A stretch of DNA of 16,823 nucleotides. Origin: Trichosporon coremiiforme (taxonomy: Eukaryota; Basidiomycota; Tremellomycetes; Trichosporonales; Trichosporonaceae). The notes under the pieces are model-generated. The model had not been told where the DNA came from and ran no database searches. It saw only the letters and a program-made list of their open reading frames with translations. The position numbers were made by a program, and so were the translations under genes. Each line of letters starts with the position of its first letter. Positions within the stretch are counted from its first letter, which is position 1. The DNA is taken from NCBI GenBank assembly GCA_039545355.1, contig BCJJ01000112.1:1-16823 (forward strand). The letters run 5' to 3'. This document shows, piece by piece, positions 8,406 through 16,704 of this stretch.

Positions 8406-11393
8406 ATGGTCCGCTCGTACATGCGCCACGGGCCGACACAGGTGAGCTCGCTTGTATCCTGCCGAGCTGACATCAGGCTTTCGGCGTTGTCACATCACCG
8501 ACCGCGAACGCGAGCTACGACGGACGTTACGCCTTCGTCCCCGGCTGGGAGGATGTGCTCGTGTGGGACGTGAAGCGCGGTGAGCAGGTCGCGATGTGGC
8601 ATGCCGTTGGCGTCACCTCTCCGGTCAGCTACCTTGCGCCTGCACCGCCGCCGTCCGAGAGCTCTGCTTCCTGGCCCGCGACCTTCGCCGTGGCTTACAA
8701 TGACGGTGCGATCCGACTTTGGTCCTGGGCGCCCGGCTCTGAGGCTACCGAGGTCGTTACGTTCAACGGACACAAGAAAGGAATCAACACTCTCGCCTGG
8801 GACGCCGACGGATCCCGCCTCGCTTCCGGAGGTGTCGAGGGAGAGGTGGTCATCTGGGACCGTGTTGCCGAGGTCGGCCTGTTCCGTCTCAAGGGACACC
8901 GCGGCGCCATCACCAGCATCACCTTCCTCCCCCACCCCACGCAGAGCGCTACGACCCACCCCGGATATCTCCTCACCACGAGCAAGGACACGTACCTCAA
9001 GCTGTGGGACCTGAGCACGCAGCACTGTGTTCAGACTGTTGTTGTTGGCCGCGGAGAGGTCACCTCTGCCGCCGTCCAGGAGGAAGGCGCGGAGGACGGT
9101 CGCTACATCGTTGTCACTGGCAGTGGTGACGGAGAGGTCAAGGCCTGGAGCATCGGCAAGGAGGGTCTCGCCGATGGACTGAAGGAGAACGAGGACGGAG
9201 AGGTAAGCTAGAGCGGCGTCGAGTTCCAGCTAACATCAGCTTCCCAAGCTTGTTGTGCCCGTGTGCTCCCTCCCGCTTCCGACATCGACGCACGCTGTCT
9301 CGCAGATCACCTTCCACCCCTCGCTCCCGCTCATCTTCGCCCAGACGACGGACAAGACGACGGCCGTGCTCCGCCTGCGATCCGAGGAGGAGGTGGCCGC
9401 GAAGCGTTCGCGCCGTGCGAAGCGTAATCGCGAGAAGGGCAAGAAGAAGGGTGTTACGGAGGAGGAAGTCGAGGTCAACGATCTCGGACCGGTTGCCTGG
9501 GAGGACCGGGTGACAACATGGTGTGTCATCCGCGCGAACGCCAAGGTGCGCTCCTTCGCGCTCTCGCCGTACGATGGCGGCAAGACGTTTGGCGTCCTCC
9601 TGCAGCAGAGCAACAACTCGCTTGAGGCGTACGCCGTCCCCGTTCCGCAGGGCAAGAGCAAGCTCGCCGACGGAAGCGCTCCCGAGCCGACGAAGGTGCA
9701 CTCGGTCGAGCTCCCCGGACATCGCCAGGATGTGCGTGCCCTCGCGGTCAGCAGCGATGACCAGGTCCTTGCCTCCGCCGCGAACGGAACGCTCAAGGTG
9801 TGGAACGTGCGCACGACGGCGTGCCTGCGTACGATGGAGTGTGGCTACGCGCTGTGCTGCACCTTCCTTCCCGGAGACCGACACGTTGTCGTTGGAACGA
9901 AGGCGGGTGAGCTGCTTCTCTTCGATGTGGCCGCCTCGACGCTGCTGAGCCGGTACGAGGCGCACAAGGGCCCGGTGTGGTCTGTCGCCGTTCGTCCAGA
10001 CGGCCGTGGTCTCGTCTCCGGATCAGCAGACAAGGACGTCAAGTTCTGGGACTTTGAGATGCGCGAGGACGGCGAGGGCGAGCGTGTCGTGAGCCGTTTG
10101 GGCGTCGAGACGGTGTACAAGACGAAGCAGCTCGCGCTCGTGCACACGCGCACGCTCAAGATGACCGACGACGTGCTCTGCGTCAAGTACTCGCCTGACG
10201 GTCGTTTCCTCGCCGTGTCGCTCCTCGACTCGACGGTCAAGATCTTCTTCCAGGATTCGCTCAAGTTCTTCCTCTCGCTTTACGGACACAAGCTCCCCGT
10301 CCTCTCCATGGACATCAGCAGCGACAGCAAGCTGATCGTGACGTGTTCGGCGGACAAGAACGTCAAGATCTGGGGCCTTGACTTCGGAGACTGTCACCGC
10401 TCGCTGTTCGCGCACGACGACTCTGTCATGGGCGTCGCCTTCGAGAAGAACAGCCACTACTTCTGGACAGTCGGCAAGGACCGTCTGCTCAAGTACTGGG
10501 ACGGCGACAAGTTTGAGCTCATCCAGAAGCTGGCGGGACACCAGGGCGAGGTGTGGGCTCTCGCCGTGTCGCAGCAGGGCGAGTGGGTTGCGACCGGAAG
10601 TCACGACAAGAGCATCCGTATCTGGGAGAAGACGGACGAGCCGCTGTTCCTGGAGGAGGAGCGCGAGCGCGAGCTGGAGGACGCGCACGACGCCGCGCTC
10701 GCGGACCAGATGAACCGCACCGACCTCGATGGCGAGGAGGGAGAGGACGGTGTCGAGGCCGAGGGCGTCCAGAAGCAGACGGCCGAGACGCTCATGGCCG
10801 GAGAAAGGATCATGGAGGCGCTTGAGCTCGCCGACGCTGAGAAGGAGGCGTGGAAGGAGTACGAGGCCGAGGTCGCGCACCACCGCGAGGCTGGCAATGA
10901 GGCTGCGGCCGCAGGCGTGCCCCAGCCCCAGGGCAGTGCGGAGCTCAAGGCCCGCGGCGTCACGCCAGAGGAGCACGTGTACCAGACGCTGTCCAAGATC
11001 CCCGCTGCGCAGATGGAGGACGCCCTCCTCGTCCTGCCCTTCCGCAATGTCGTCTCTTTGCTCGGATACCTCGACGCGTGGGCGCGTGCCGACCGCGACA
11101 TCATCCTCACCTCCCGCCTGCTCCTGTTCCTCGTCAAGACGCACCACGCACAAATAGTCGCGAACCGAGTCATGCGCACGCAGCTCGTCGATCTGCGCCG
11201 CTCCGTCCGCTCCGCCCTCGAGGGACACAGGAAGCGCATGGGCTACAACCTCGCCGCGCTCCGCTTCCTCCGCAACAGGTGGGAGAGCGAGCAGACCGCC
11301 GGCCTGCTCGAGGAGGAGAACATGGACGAGGAGGCGGTGCGCAAGCGTATCGAGGAGGGACGCGCCAAGAGGAAACGCGTCAATGTGGCGTAA
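8406..11393 (+). CDS. UTP12: U3 snoRNP / SSU processome WD-repeat protein Utp12 (Dip2, WDR3)
   Basis: Nucleolar UTP-B component required for 18S pre-rRNA processing and 40S subunit assembly. Exons 8406-8441, 8477-9202 and 9240-11393 join to 971 residues (yeast Dip2 is of similar size). Introns of 35 and 37 nt carry GTGAGC/GTAAGC and CTGAC/CTAAC sites. The N-terminus MVRSYMRHGPTQ-AFGVV matches the family start, and the ATG context (CAAACATGG) is good. At least twelve WD-blade ends are visible (e.g. LVWDV, IRLWSW, VIWDRV, LKLWDLS, LKVWNVR, VKFWDFE, VKIWGLD, LKYWDGD, IRIWEKT), which fits two tandem beta-propellers. A basic patch (KRSRRAKRNREKGKKKG) sits near residues 306-325. A charged helical region precedes the C-terminal Utp12 domain (about 847-950), and the protein ends in a basic KRKR tail suited to nuclear import. 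Identification is strong. Confidence 0.97.
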
Positions 11394-12100: not shown

Positions 12101-13715
12101 GCTGGCTCGTTGGGTCTGGAAGGCGTTCGCGGTTATGTCTGTGAAGTAATTGCAGAGTGAGTGGGCAATGAGGGGAGGGGAAGAGGACACGTCAAATGGG
12201 GAAGGGCATATATACCGCGACACTCTGGGTCAGGTGGACAGCGAGTTGTTCCATCATGCCCCCGGGAAGCTTGCGGGGATGAACATGCGGCGTTCGTTGG
12301 CGCATGGTCTACCATCGAGTCAACTGGTGCAGTGAGAAAGGCAGAGTGGGCGGTATGCCCCGGACGCCTGGCGAGCGCCCAAGAATGGCACAAGAAGACA
12401 TCTATGTGATCCACCCCCGTAGCATTCCTTAGTCATGAAGCCCACAGACTGAAGTACTGAGAGGTCATGAGATCTCGATGCGCCGCAGTATGCGCGCAAA
12501 TAATGAACGCACATCGGTCAATTTACGGTCAGCTGGACTTCAATCCTGGGGACCCCGCCCCCGCCCTCTCACCGTTCTGAGGCGTGAGAGCCAAGGATTT
12601 CTGGTTCTGCACGTGGTCACACGATGCCAATTCGAAAAAGACGCGTCGGCTTGAAGCCCGAGGTGGGCCGAGATTCGGGCCAGACCGACGATCCTGCTCT
12701 ACCTGACTCACTTGTGAACATGTGCTCTGCGCGTGAATGAAGGAGGAGGTCATGCGGCGAAGACGTCAGAGCTGTTTCCGTGCCCGAGAGAAGACGCCGC
12801 ATCGTTTGATCGACACCCCTTCCCCCACCCCAAAGGAGGGCGGGGAAGGCGGGGGTTGGATTGAGTTGACTAGGCTGCGTCGGGCGAAATCTTTGGTGGC
12901 GAACTTATCCTTATGCTGTCGCCACTTGAGCAGCACGACACCGGGGGTTAGCCTGGTATCAGTACAGCCATGTGACAACAGCCGCAGTGAAATGGATGGA
13001 AAGAAGGAATGTTTCAGAGAGCAAGACATCGACACATGGAGGGGGAAACACCTCGCCGTTTCACAAGTGCACGAGTGACACTGGCGCAGCAGCACGTCGT
13101 CAGTTTCGTTCCTGGTTCATTCCCAACTTGACGACCACTGCCAAAGGAGGTAACGCGTTTCAGAGCACCACACCACCGTTGCCATGCACACATTGCGCTC
13201 CTTTTCTGATGCACCGACGCTTTTGACACTTCACTATCCGCTCTGGCCACTCCCCTCTGTCTACAATCATCTTCCCAGAAAGCTCGCTCGGCCTCGCAGT
13301 TTCCGGCAGTGTTCGTCCGGGATTAGCGGTGGATGCTAATGTCAGAGCAAGCGTGGCCGCGCACTGAGCAGGTGCAGAGCCTTCCTCGTCTTGCGACGCC
13401 GTGAGTTCCGGCAGCTACCCACCCGCAGAAAGTGAGCTGATAGTCAGTTCCCGCGAAGGACCGTCGATCCTTGACCGACAACAACGTCTCAAATGTCAGT
13501 TGACGTTCTTTGTCATCGACGACCCAGTCGTCGGATGGACCTTGTCGCGATCTGTGTATGAGCAACCTGCTGCACTCAGCTCAAAGGAGCCTTCCTCAGG
13601 AATGAGACCAGTGGGCGACTCGGATAAAATATGATTGTGAACTGAAAGGACCTGTTCGAGCAGCTGCCTGGAAGCCTGATCAGCGACGAGAGGGTGTCTG
13701 GGCTACACTCCAAAG
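12101..13715. other. Long intergenic region with no convincing gene
   Basis: Begins with the promoter of the minus-strand Ser-rich gene and ends with the presumptive upstream region of the gene at 13716 (an AT-rich GATAAAATATG at about 13623-13633 may be its core promoter). At 12818-12849 there is a C-rich then G-rich inverted repeat (CCTTCCCC / GGGGAAGG) with several G-runs. Open frames at 12737-13095, 13014-13250 and 13323-13634 have no domain, poor codon character and no splice-site support. Confidence 0.5.
12209..12215 (-). promoter_or_regulatory. TATA box of the Ser-rich small-protein gene
   Basis: TATATAT on the minus strand, about 110 bases upstream of the ATG at 12100. This is the third minus-strand gene in the window with a TATA element 110-195 bases before its ATG. 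Confidence 0.5.
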
Positions 13716-14263
13716 ATGCAGCTAGATGATTCGTGAGCTTCCTGAGCCTTCGAAACGCTGCTAACCCGCAGCAACAGGTTTTTACCTGCACCGCAGAGCA
13801 TTACCCCGGTAGACTCGTAAGCTGCAATGGCCCGCACGTCAAGCTAAACCTCAGCACGTTTAACAAGACGCTGGGGAGCGGTACGGCGCCGTCTTGGGAG
13901 AGGCGTGACTTGCCAATCTCCGTGTGCAATTCCAACAGCGACGTCCGCGCAGGGTAAGCTCAATGGTTCTCCCGTCGTACTCAGTTGACATCAAGTGGTG
14001 GACCTTCTCCTCCGCCTCGACAGCATTATGTGAGTCTCGCTCCATCATTTGCCCACAAGATGACCACTCTGGTTTGGATTCAAAGGTGACCGTTATCAAT
14101 GAGAATAGGTGTCTGATAACATTGCAAGATAGACCCAGGTGCACCCAGCTAACACCAGGGTCATATTGAAAACAAGGCAAAGCTTGGGGAACGCCAGAAC
14201 GGTAAGCTGCATCGCGGATATCACAACAGCATAGCTTGACACGCAGAGACGAAAAGGCAATGA
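13716..14263 (+). CDS. Tentative six-exon small gene, function unknown
   Basis: Found from splice signals, not from a long frame. Exons 13716-13732 (17 nt), 13772-13816, 13855-13953, 13996-14029, 14159-14201 and 14247-14263 (17 nt, stop TGA) join with no frame break to 84 residues, starting MQLDDS and ending ETKRQ. Introns 1, 2, 3 and 5 (39, 38, 42 and 45 nt) have GTGAGC or GTAAGC donors and CTAAC/CTAAAC/TTGAC branch motifs just before the acceptor, like the window's confirmed introns. Intron 4 (129 nt) contains internal AG|GT borders. Five consecutive in-frame junctions support coding, but the protein has no recognised domain and the exons are tiny. It could instead be a spliced non-coding RNA or a decaying gene. 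Confidence 0.4.
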
Positions 14264-14910: not shown

Positions 14911-16191
14911 ATGTCCGCCCTTCAGCTCAAGTCCGGGGGGTACCGCTCTCCACCCCAGGTTCAAAGCCCGGCTCCGACACCCGCACCGCAAGGCAGGGCG
15001 CAGCGCCGCCTCTCGAAGCAGCTGCTCGACATGGAGCTGACGGCGAGCGCGAACCCGCACCACGACGTGCTGCTTATCTGCAAAACACACTCGACGAGGA
15101 AGGTGCAAGTGCGGGCGAATGGACAAGTGTTAAGAGCATGCTCGTGAGTGTTTGGTTCCCTTCCGTGAAACCACCGTGTGAAAGCACCTTAAGCTGTTTG
15201 GGTACAAGTCCTCTAGCTGACAGCAGCGACGTCTTCGACACGATTTTGGACGAAATCGACCTCTCCTCCGCCTTGCCGAGTATCGACACACTACAGCCCA
15301 TCGAGTCCATGACCGCCTTCATCACCTTCATCACGCCTCACGCACACAAGCACAGCTTCACGGTCGACGAGCTGCTCGAGGTCGCGCGGACGGCGAATGT
15401 GTTCCGCTGCCGGCCATTCGTGTCTGCCAGCGTGAAGCGATACGTCGAGAAGGCTTTTGTTGGGCCGATCACGAACAGTAACTTCTTCGCACTTCTGAGG
15501 TGAGTTGCCGCGCAGTCCAACAAGCTGACAGGGCAGGTGAGCTGGGTCTCGATCGTCGTATGATAGCTGACGTGACAGGTGAGCTCATCGTTACTTCGAG
15601 AGCTGACGCGACAGGTAAGCTTTTCGCCCGACTTGGTAAGCTGACGGGACAGGTGAGATGACGGTTTGTGCTGCCGGAGCTAATGAGCAGGTGAGGTACC
15701 CTGTTTTAATGTTCCAGCTGACTGTGCAGGTGAGCTTCGCAAGTATGCGATCTCAGCTGACGTAGGAGGTAAGCTTAGAGTACTACATGGGCTAACAGAA
15801 GGTAAGTACACAGTGACGTTCCAGCTTGATACGATCTTCCCTTCGTAAGCTGATACCAGACTCGCCCACCTGACCGCCTCCTCCGAACTCTGGGACAAGG
15901 CACTGAAGGCTGGTCCGAAACCAGGCGCCTTCTTCGCTCCGACACGACACGGTGGGGAGGTGAACCCCGCCTGGCCGTCGCCAGAAGAGGCGGCCGACGC
16001 CATGGCTCGAGAGCCAGATGTGTGGCGCGCGCTCGTGTATCTCGGCAACGAGCATGCGCTCACTGGATCATTGACGGATGTGAAAGTAGTCTACGACGGT
16101 GAGCTGTGGTGGACATGGTATAGCTGACGAGACAGCGGGACGGCTCTGCATATGCAGAGATAACGACCGGACGACATTGGTCCGATTCTAG
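14911..16191 (+). CDS. BTB/POZ-domain-like protein containing a tandem intron array
   Basis: Exons 14911-15143, 15224-15499, 15860-16098 and 16136-16191 (stop TAG) join in frame to 267 residues. The start has a good context (GCAGCCATGTC). A Pro/Gln-rich N-terminus (1-35) precedes a BTB-like fold at about 50-150: HHDVLLICK (beta strand), GQVLRACSSDVFDTIL (the 'vL..rS.vF' motif), then helices typical of fungal BTB proteins, with a helical tail (FALLRLAHLTASSELWDKAL) spanning the exon 2/3 junction. Such proteins often mediate dimerisation or recruit cullin-3 ubiquitin ligases. No extra domain identifies a partner. Intron 1 (15144-15223) has a CAGCAG acceptor that may give or drop one Ser. Intron 2 is the 360-nt array at 15500-15859. 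Intron 3 is 37 nt. Two more introns are probable in the 3' UTR. Exon structure is well supported, function broad. Confidence 0.75.
15500..15859 (+). other. Head-to-tail array of nine intron-like units with zero-length exons
   Basis: Lies between BTB exons 2 and 3. Units: 15500-15536 (37 nt), 15537-15578 (42), 15579-15614 (36), 15615-15652 (38), 15653-15690 (38), 15691-15729 (39), 15730-15768 (39), 15769-15801 (33) and 15802-15859 (58). Every unit starts GTGAG or GTAAG and ends AG. Each has CTGAC, CTAAC, CTAAT or CTGAT five to seven bases before the end. Units 1-4 share AGCTGAC followed by a seven-base tail (AGGGCAG, GTGACAG, GCGACAG, GGGACAG). The interiors differ, so these are not fresh copies of one sequence. 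The unit size equals the normal intron size in this window. Joining 15499 to 15860 restores the frame (CTG AG|A CTC). The array is seen directly. How it is spliced is inference. Confidence 0.85.
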
Positions 16192-16209: not shown

Positions 16210-16243
16210 TAGCCGCGGGTGGACCGTAGCCGCGGGTGGACCG
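16210..16243. repeat. Perfect 17-nt tandem duplication
   Basis: Two identical 17-base copies (TAGCCGCGGGTGGACCG) at 16210-16226 and 16227-16243, in the last exon after the BTB stop codon. A 17-base unit changes the frame, so gain or loss of a copy would shift any reading frame through here. Confidence 0.85.
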
Positions 16244-16251
16244 GAGCCACG

Positions 16252-16288
16252 GTGAGCTGTGGCGTTTGCAAGGGAAGCTGACTACCAG
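16252..16288 (+). other. Probable 3'-UTR intron of the BTB transcript
   Basis: 37 nt: GTGAGC donor, AGCTGAC branch motif and TACCAG acceptor, 60 bases after the TAG at 16189-16191. It shares its first eleven bases (GTGAGCTGTGG) and its length with the coding intron at 16099-16135. Confidence 0.6.
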
Positions 16289-16343: not shown

Positions 16344-16384
16344 GTGAGCTAGGTTTAAATTGAGGCCGCTAGCTGACTGATCAG
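16344..16384 (+). other. Second probable 3'-UTR intron of the BTB transcript
   Basis: 41 nt: GTGAGC donor, AGCTGAC branch motif and GATCAG acceptor. It follows the intron at 16252-16288 after a 55-nt exon. Downstream, 16385-16620 holds the presumed end of the transcript, with no other gene seen. Confidence 0.55.
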
Positions 16385-16625: not shown

Positions 16626-16632
16626 GGAAGAG

Positions 16633-16704
16633 CTTCCTGTCGGAGAATCGAACTCCGATCTCCCGCGTGACAAGCGAGCATACTAGCCGTTATACGAACA
16701 GGAA
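16633..16704 (-). tRNA. tRNA-Asp(GTC): tRNA-Asp (anticodon GTC)
   Basis: A complete intronless cloverleaf on the minus strand. The acceptor stem TTCCTGT/ACAGGAA has seven perfect pairs. The D stem is GTAT/GTAT with G-U pairs, as in yeast tRNA-Asp. The anticodon arm is CTCGC-TTGTCAC-GCGGG with anticodon GTC, and the T arm is CGGAG-TTCGATT-CTCCG. The discriminator base is G, the identity element for Asp. The T arm doubles as the internal B box and the D arm as the A box. Length is 72 bases without CCA. Confidence 0.95.

Follow-up and report, generated by a model that had tools for sequence, protein, structure and literature searches.

An array of nine head-to-tail intron-like units, predicted to be removed stepwise, in a predicted gene of Trichosporon coremiiforme

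Positions 15500-15859 (+) of the window (the whole stretch of DNA analysed, 16,823 nucleotides) were found to consist of nine consecutive GTRAG...CTRAY...AG units, arranged head to tail over 360 nt. The array is real, lies far beyond chance, is intron-like in every unit and is not explained by repeats. Judged from the sequence, it probably represents a chain of minimal introns that would be removed stepwise by the major spliceosome, each cut restoring a donor. The units and the predicted gene in which they lie are as follows (a slash marks a splice border; bits refer to the splice-signal score described below):

14911..15143 (+), exon 1 of the host gene (predicted, ATG at 14911); open frame, best coding score -0.15 (weak) versus -0.52 and -0.37
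15144..15223 or 15144..15226 (+), intron 1 (predicted), 80-83 nt; GTGAGT...CTGACAG/CAG, acceptor at 15223 or 15226
15224..15499 (+), exon 2; ends in ...NFFALLR with the AG of a split Arg codon, coding score +0.15 in frame
15500..15536 (+), intron unit 1, 37 nt; GTGAGT, CTGAC, CAG; 24.1 bits
15537..15578 (+), intron unit 2, 42 nt; GTGAGC, CTGAC, CAG; 27.9 bits
15579..15614 (+), intron unit 3, 36 nt; GTGAGC, CTGAC, CAG; 27.9 bits
15615..15652 (+), intron unit 4, 38 nt; GTAAGC, CTGAC, CAG; 26.8 bits
15653..15690 (+), intron unit 5, 38 nt; GTGAGA, CTAAT, CAG; 16.3 bits
15691..15729 (+), intron unit 6, 39 nt; GTGAGG, CTGAC, CAG; 23.3 bits
15730..15768 (+), intron unit 7, 39 nt (36 nt with the TAG at 15765 as acceptor); GTGAGC, CTGAC, TAG/GAG; 23.3 bits with GAG
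15766..15768 (+), possible 3-nt exon GAG, from the NAGNAG acceptor of unit 7; would add one Arg in frame
15769..15801 (+), intron unit 8, 33 nt; GTAAGC, CTAAC, AAG; 17.9 bits
15802..15859 (+), intron unit 9, 58 nt; GTAAGT, CTGAT, CAG; 20.4 bits
15860..16098 (+), exon 3; AG/A (Arg) joins exon 2 in frame, coding score 0.0 versus -0.53 and -0.67
16099..16135 (+), ordinary 37-nt intron in the host gene (predicted; part of the yardstick); GTGAGC...CTGAC...CAG

The units measured 37, 42, 36, 38, 38, 39, 39, 33 and 58 nt in order, each beginning one base past the end of its predecessor, with a possible gap of 3 nt between units 7 and 8. All eight internal borders read AG/GTRAG, the juxtaposition by which ratchet points are recognised, and the border between units 7 and 8, TAG/GAG/GTAAG, could be read with either 0 or 3 nt between the units. 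The original prediction, of nine GTRAG...AG units of 33-58 nt between two exons joining in frame, was borne out by a chain finder (GTRAG, CTRAY and AG, 28-70 nt, head to tail), which returned exactly these nine. Its further claims, that every internal border reads AG/GTRAG and that the units are fused introns, were supported, the second in part, by eight of eight borders, by intron anatomy in nine of nine units, by in-frame exons and abutting borders and by a fungus near Trichosporonales, subject in both cases to the 3 nt that may separate units 7 and 8. The count of eight AGGTRAG motifs held for the array interior, and a ninth was found at the exon/array border (nine occurrences in all, at 15498-15806).

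An earlier AG was present in units 1, 5 and 8, at 3-4 nt past the branch-site A, and absent from units 2, 3, 4 and 6; an AG only 3-4 nt beyond the branch-site A is considered too close for use as an acceptor. The ordinary intron at 16099 likewise has such an early AG (1 of the 13 yardstick introns). With a cruder script, in which each donor was paired with the closest acceptor, units 7 and 9 came out shorter, ending at 15765 and 15849, respectively; units 5 and 6 were missed because GTRWGY donors were demanded. The shorter form of unit 9 would leave behind CTGATACCAG, read as AGC TGA and thus as a stop, so that 15859 is the acceptor that fits the frame. Additional GTRAG donors at 15636 (unit 4) and 15845 (unit 9), both on the + strand, overlapped branch sites (GTAAGCTGAC and GTAAGCTGAT, respectively).

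Splice signals were scored with a PWM built from 13 hand-picked ordinary introns of the window, each left out in turn. Altogether 31 intron-like rows were available, nine of them in the array; from the other 22, 13 were picked and nine dropped (2762, 6563, 13401, 13817, 13922 and 15144 on the + strand; 2675, 1868 and 1313 on the - strand), mostly for being long, weak or overlapping. Against this yardstick, which hand-picking biases toward short clean introns, the nine units averaged 23.1 bits versus 24.3 for the 13 ordinary introns (Mann-Whitney p = 0.50), and the weakest (units 5 and 8) were still inside the ordinary range of 16.2-30.4 bits. A U2-type donor, branch site and acceptor at genome-typical spacing were present in all nine units, the distance from the branch A to the unit end being 6-8 nt, compared with 4-9 nt in ordinary introns. 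The GAG acceptor end of unit 7 had no parallel among the 13 ordinary introns (12 CAG, 1 AAG). Two introns of the neighbouring Utp12 gene (8442-8476 and 9203-9239; 35 and 37 nt, respectively) match the array units in form and size, and the spliced Utp12 readings MVRSYMRHGPTQAFGVV and GELPKLV agree with annotated homologues.

Under the stepwise reading, each donor would pair by intron definition with the nearest downstream branch site and acceptor, at 33-58 nt, and excision of one unit would rejoin an AG to the next GTRAG, restoring a donor. No unit interrupts the signals of another, so removal of any one would leave the others whole and, as far as the sequence alone can indicate, the order of removal would be free; 2^9 states and 9! 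single-unit routes would then converge on one end product, and any order would give the same mRNA. Neighbouring units could hardly hold two spliceosomes at once, and removal would therefore probably be successive. Partly spliced RNA would carry a TGA or TAA right after Arg170, would be non-productive and would probably be degraded. The internal signals would be kept by selection, as unused ones would be expected to decay while the middles of the units drifted. A free order is argued against by recursive removal in flies, which, in the available part of the report, runs 5' to 3' with AGGT-to-AGGT junctions not found (PMC6110457).

An alternative that we consider unlikely, while taking it seriously, is that the 360 nt form a single intron removed in one step (15500 to 15859), with the internal sites as unused leftovers of duplications or insertions. 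The outermost donor and acceptor suffice for an in-frame product, and the window holds longer introns than the units (intron 1, 15144-15223/15226, 80-83 nt), so that a length of 360 nt is not impossible for a single intron. The reported excess of conventional over recursive lariats in human introns under 1 kb (PMC10156609, in the part of the paper available) also favours single removal to some degree. The spliceosome would, however, have to bypass eight good nearer acceptors, and nine of nine units keep signals of normal strength and spacing although their middles share nothing, whereas unused sites should decay.

Exons 2 and 3 had their best coding scores in exactly the frames that join, although these scores (+0.15 and 0.0) were below that of Utp12 (0.45), which was itself part of the training set. 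The array scored -0.76 to -0.87, and its three frames contained 9, 10 and 11 stops. The array intron is in phase 2, and any retained GTRAG donor reads AG/G TGA or AG/G TAA, so that a retained unit puts a stop right after Arg170. Of the 512 combinations in which units are kept or removed, 511 hit a stop, and the frame was kept to the end in one (full removal). Retention of parts of the interior as coding exons, which the original prediction had named as an outcome that would count against it, is thus disfavoured by the sequence, with the 3-nt GAG as the only usable-looking candidate. Among 98 acceptor/donor combinations, three gave open in-frame internal exons (3, 21 and 66 nt) and five more were open but out of frame. 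The 66-nt candidate (15779-15844) would require a 15-nt intron after it, and the 21-nt candidate (15781-15801) requires a GAG acceptor that lies 20 nt from the branch site and behind better ones; both were rejected. Alternative splicing, in which some of the mRNA would retain an interior stretch as a short coding exon, draws what plausibility it has from the GAG triplet and appears improbable, given that whole-unit retention always stops, that the two longer exons depend on these poor configurations and that the array is non-coding by score in all three frames.

The spliced host protein of 253 aa had no homologue at E <= 0.001 among 882 candidates and no Pfam family at E <= 1, its best match in PDB had an E of 0.83, and the structure model of exon 2 was poor (mean pLDDT 57.1). 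By eye we took it to resemble a BTB/POZ protein, a likeness to which the profile and homologue searches gave no support. A search with exon 2 (E <= 1) yielded five related ORFs out of seven candidates, from other assemblies, with 92, 89, 89, 76 and 74 of the 92 exon 2 residues identical. Each of the five stops precisely at ...NFFALLR, whose final Arg lies just before the first donor. We infer that a phase-2 GTRAG donor conserved at the position of 15500 would explain this shared end; as protein sequences, the related ORFs fit a stop at the first donor and are silent on the other eight units. Except for the nearest one, they are alike only from SDVFD onward: over the 29 intron 1-derived residues upstream of exon 2 in the window, identities were 27, 3, 8, 5 and 10, figures in which the frame and the ORF start may differ. 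This poor likeness may hint at fast intron turnover. A scan of viral contigs with the exon 2 relatives gave no match.

The neighbouring Utp12 was 79% identical to its counterparts in Cutaneotrichosporon cavernicola and Vanrija humicola and 75% identical to that of Cryptotrichosporon argae (all Trichosporonales), and 98% identical to the Utp12 of one further assembly. Two pairs of Utp12 and exon 2 homologues (P0001/P0122 and P0002/P0124) appear to come from the same assemblies, which suggests that Utp12 and the host gene remain neighbours in relatives. Two more intron-like units, similar in form to those of the array, lie on the + strand at 16252-16288 and 16344-16384 (37 and 41 nt, respectively). 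As the host gene is read here, both follow its stop codons, and they are perhaps introns of its 3' untranslated region. A 17-nt repeat in 2.5 copies (TAGCCGCGGGTGGACCG; 16210-16252, +), detected by Tandem Repeats Finder, adjoins a predicted intron donor. Further upstream, a run of intron-like units (13401, 13733, 13817, 13922/13954 and 14202) occupies 13401-14246 on the + strand, where no gene was named, and could perhaps mark another intron-dense transcript. The only Rfam match in the window at gathering thresholds was a tRNA at 16633-16704, which corresponds to a tRNA-Asp (gtc) gene at 16632-16704 (-).

Chance did not account for the array. The whole window contained 16 AGGTRAG motifs on both strands, versus a mean of 3.86 in 200 shuffles (sd 1.82, largest 11), and runs of three AGGTRAG spaced 24-50 nt apart gave seven matches, all within the array, versus none in 200 shuffles. 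With the chain finder, the longest chain in the window was nine units on the + strand and one on the - strand. Of 20,000 dinucleotide shuffles of the 360 nt, three yielded a chain of two units and none a longer one; no chain exceeded one unit when the window was shuffled 300 times. A harsher control drew on viral stretches selected for carrying three spaced AGGTRAG sites, of which there were at least 120. Among the 120 listed, the longest chain with branch sites was 0 or 1 in 112, 2 in four, 3 in three and 7 in one; where a branch site was not required, one chain among those listed reached 11 units and one reached 8. Chains of such length therefore do arise in repetitive DNA. Among the stretches listed, those in which a chain with branch sites had at least three units (L049, L031, L058 and L105) were visibly related repeats, L049 consisting of seven units of 45 nt. 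The array differs from these in that its units vary in length, Tandem Repeats Finder detected no repeat within it and the unit middles are unrelated: their mean similarity z was 0.43 within the array (36 pairs), compared with 0.63 between array and other introns (117 pairs) and 0.46 among other introns (78 pairs). A coding repeat or minisatellite was rejected on the same evidence, and a structured RNA was rejected as well (fold z = -0.94; 16 of 100 shuffles folded equally well). That the array is a tandem repeat or assembly artefact merely resembling introns is very improbable: repetitive viral DNA can mimic such chains, as the seven-unit chain among the stretches listed indicates, but the viral chains are repeats in a way that the array, with units of 33-58 nt, is not, and the array is flanked by open exons and five related ORFs stop at its first donor.

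The same observations bear on how the array arose. In a substitution model without selection, at 10% change, a mean of 2.83 of the nine units stayed intact, and all nine did so in none of 2,000 runs. Intact signals combined with unrelated middles point either to selection on the signals or to recent arrivals from different sources. The units may derive either from an old tandem duplication or from repeated insertion of whole introns at AG/GT; if duplicated, they would have lost all visible similarity yet kept every splice signal, and if unrelated introns had been inserted recently, their intact signals would need no selection. A recent tandem duplication was rejected, as the middles show no residual similarity. 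A 3' end, CTGACGNGACAG, is common to units 2, 3 and 4 and the ordinary intron at 16099 (15570-15578, 15606-15614, 15644-15652 and 16123-16135, respectively, all +) and occurs in no other compared intron; noticed after the fact, it may be a weak hint of common descent within the host gene.

Several known systems resemble the array in part, as far as the available portions of the cited papers describe them. Ratchet points juxtapose an acceptor and a donor, with the consensus (y)nncag/gtaagt (PMC2773006), and up to seven high-confidence ones have been reported in one fly intron, with segments nearly all longer than 1 kb (PMC6110457). The array shares with ratchet-point splicing in flies and vertebrates the abutting acceptor and donor, a donor restored by removal of the upstream segment and several sites per intron; it differs in placing eight sites within 360 nt of a fungal sequence, in segments of 33-58 nt, with a stepwise removal that is here predicted from the sequence. 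The usual setting of ratchet points, a long host intron with segments mostly longer than 1 kb, is thus absent, although this trait is typical rather than strictly defining. Rat tropomyosin has a zero-length exon (Grellscheid and Smith 2006, as described in PMC2773006), in which a 3' splice site is likewise followed at once by a 5' splice site within a short intron setting, but it is one site, tied to a pseudo-exon, whereas the array has eight in a row.

Fungal stwintrons, which are nested U2 introns in pairs (PMC7138796, PMC5639578), resemble the array in that several U2 introns form one intervening sequence and are thought to be removed successively by intron definition (PMC7138796, PMC9024468). 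The nine units of the array, by contrast, are each whole and adjoin one another without nesting. The donor, branch site and acceptor of every unit are uninterrupted, which sets the array apart from stwintrons in the strict sense. In the broad sense a stwintron is a canonical intron within a canonical intron, with the elements undisturbed (PMC9024468); a side-by-side reading fits all units, and the sequence also permits nested pairings (for example, donor 1 with acceptor 9). Introners offer a process by which one place could gain entire new introns (PMC9860276), but they are families of similar copies, whereas the array units share nothing beyond splice signals: in a comparison within the window, they showed no similarity to one another or to the 13 other introns. 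Intron gain by tandem genomic duplication (PMC4974935) could build such joints through head-to-tail duplication, but it is described for one gained intron, and in the array whole introns would have been multiplied, with no residual similarity left.

The original statement that nothing like a nine-fold array had been described was upheld in part. No fungal array of nine, or of more than two, units was found in the titles and abstract openings of the open-licence papers listed, nothing direct on recursive splicing in fungi was found in that literature, and the available part of a newer stwintron paper (PMC12403724) contains no terms for tandem or tripartite introns. On the other side, zero-length exons, multi-site ratchet points (PMC6110457) and two-unit nested fungal introns (PMC7138796) are known. 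The array is best read as following the logic of recursive or multi-unit introns on a much reduced scale, and its units outnumber those that the cited papers describe in fungal introns.

If each unit is spliced, rules of intron definition would become testable in one short stretch, where a choice must be made among nine near-equal neighbours without exons, and the array would bear on the order of removal, on the minimum size of a zero-exon segment and on the delay caused by nine cycles. With all partly spliced forms halting at one and the same codon, the array could, speculatively, act as an all-or-none gate on the host gene. Splicing of each unit would further make it a natural record of intron multiplication at one place, touching on the origin of new introns. 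More tentatively, the array may be an intron train, in which nine independent minimal introns at one position, grown by repeated insertion of unrelated introns into AG/GT joints, would be excised in any order in up to nine spliceosome cycles that converge on one mRNA, with incomplete states stopping at the same codon. If that possibility were true, an intron border would be a self-renewing landing site for new introns.
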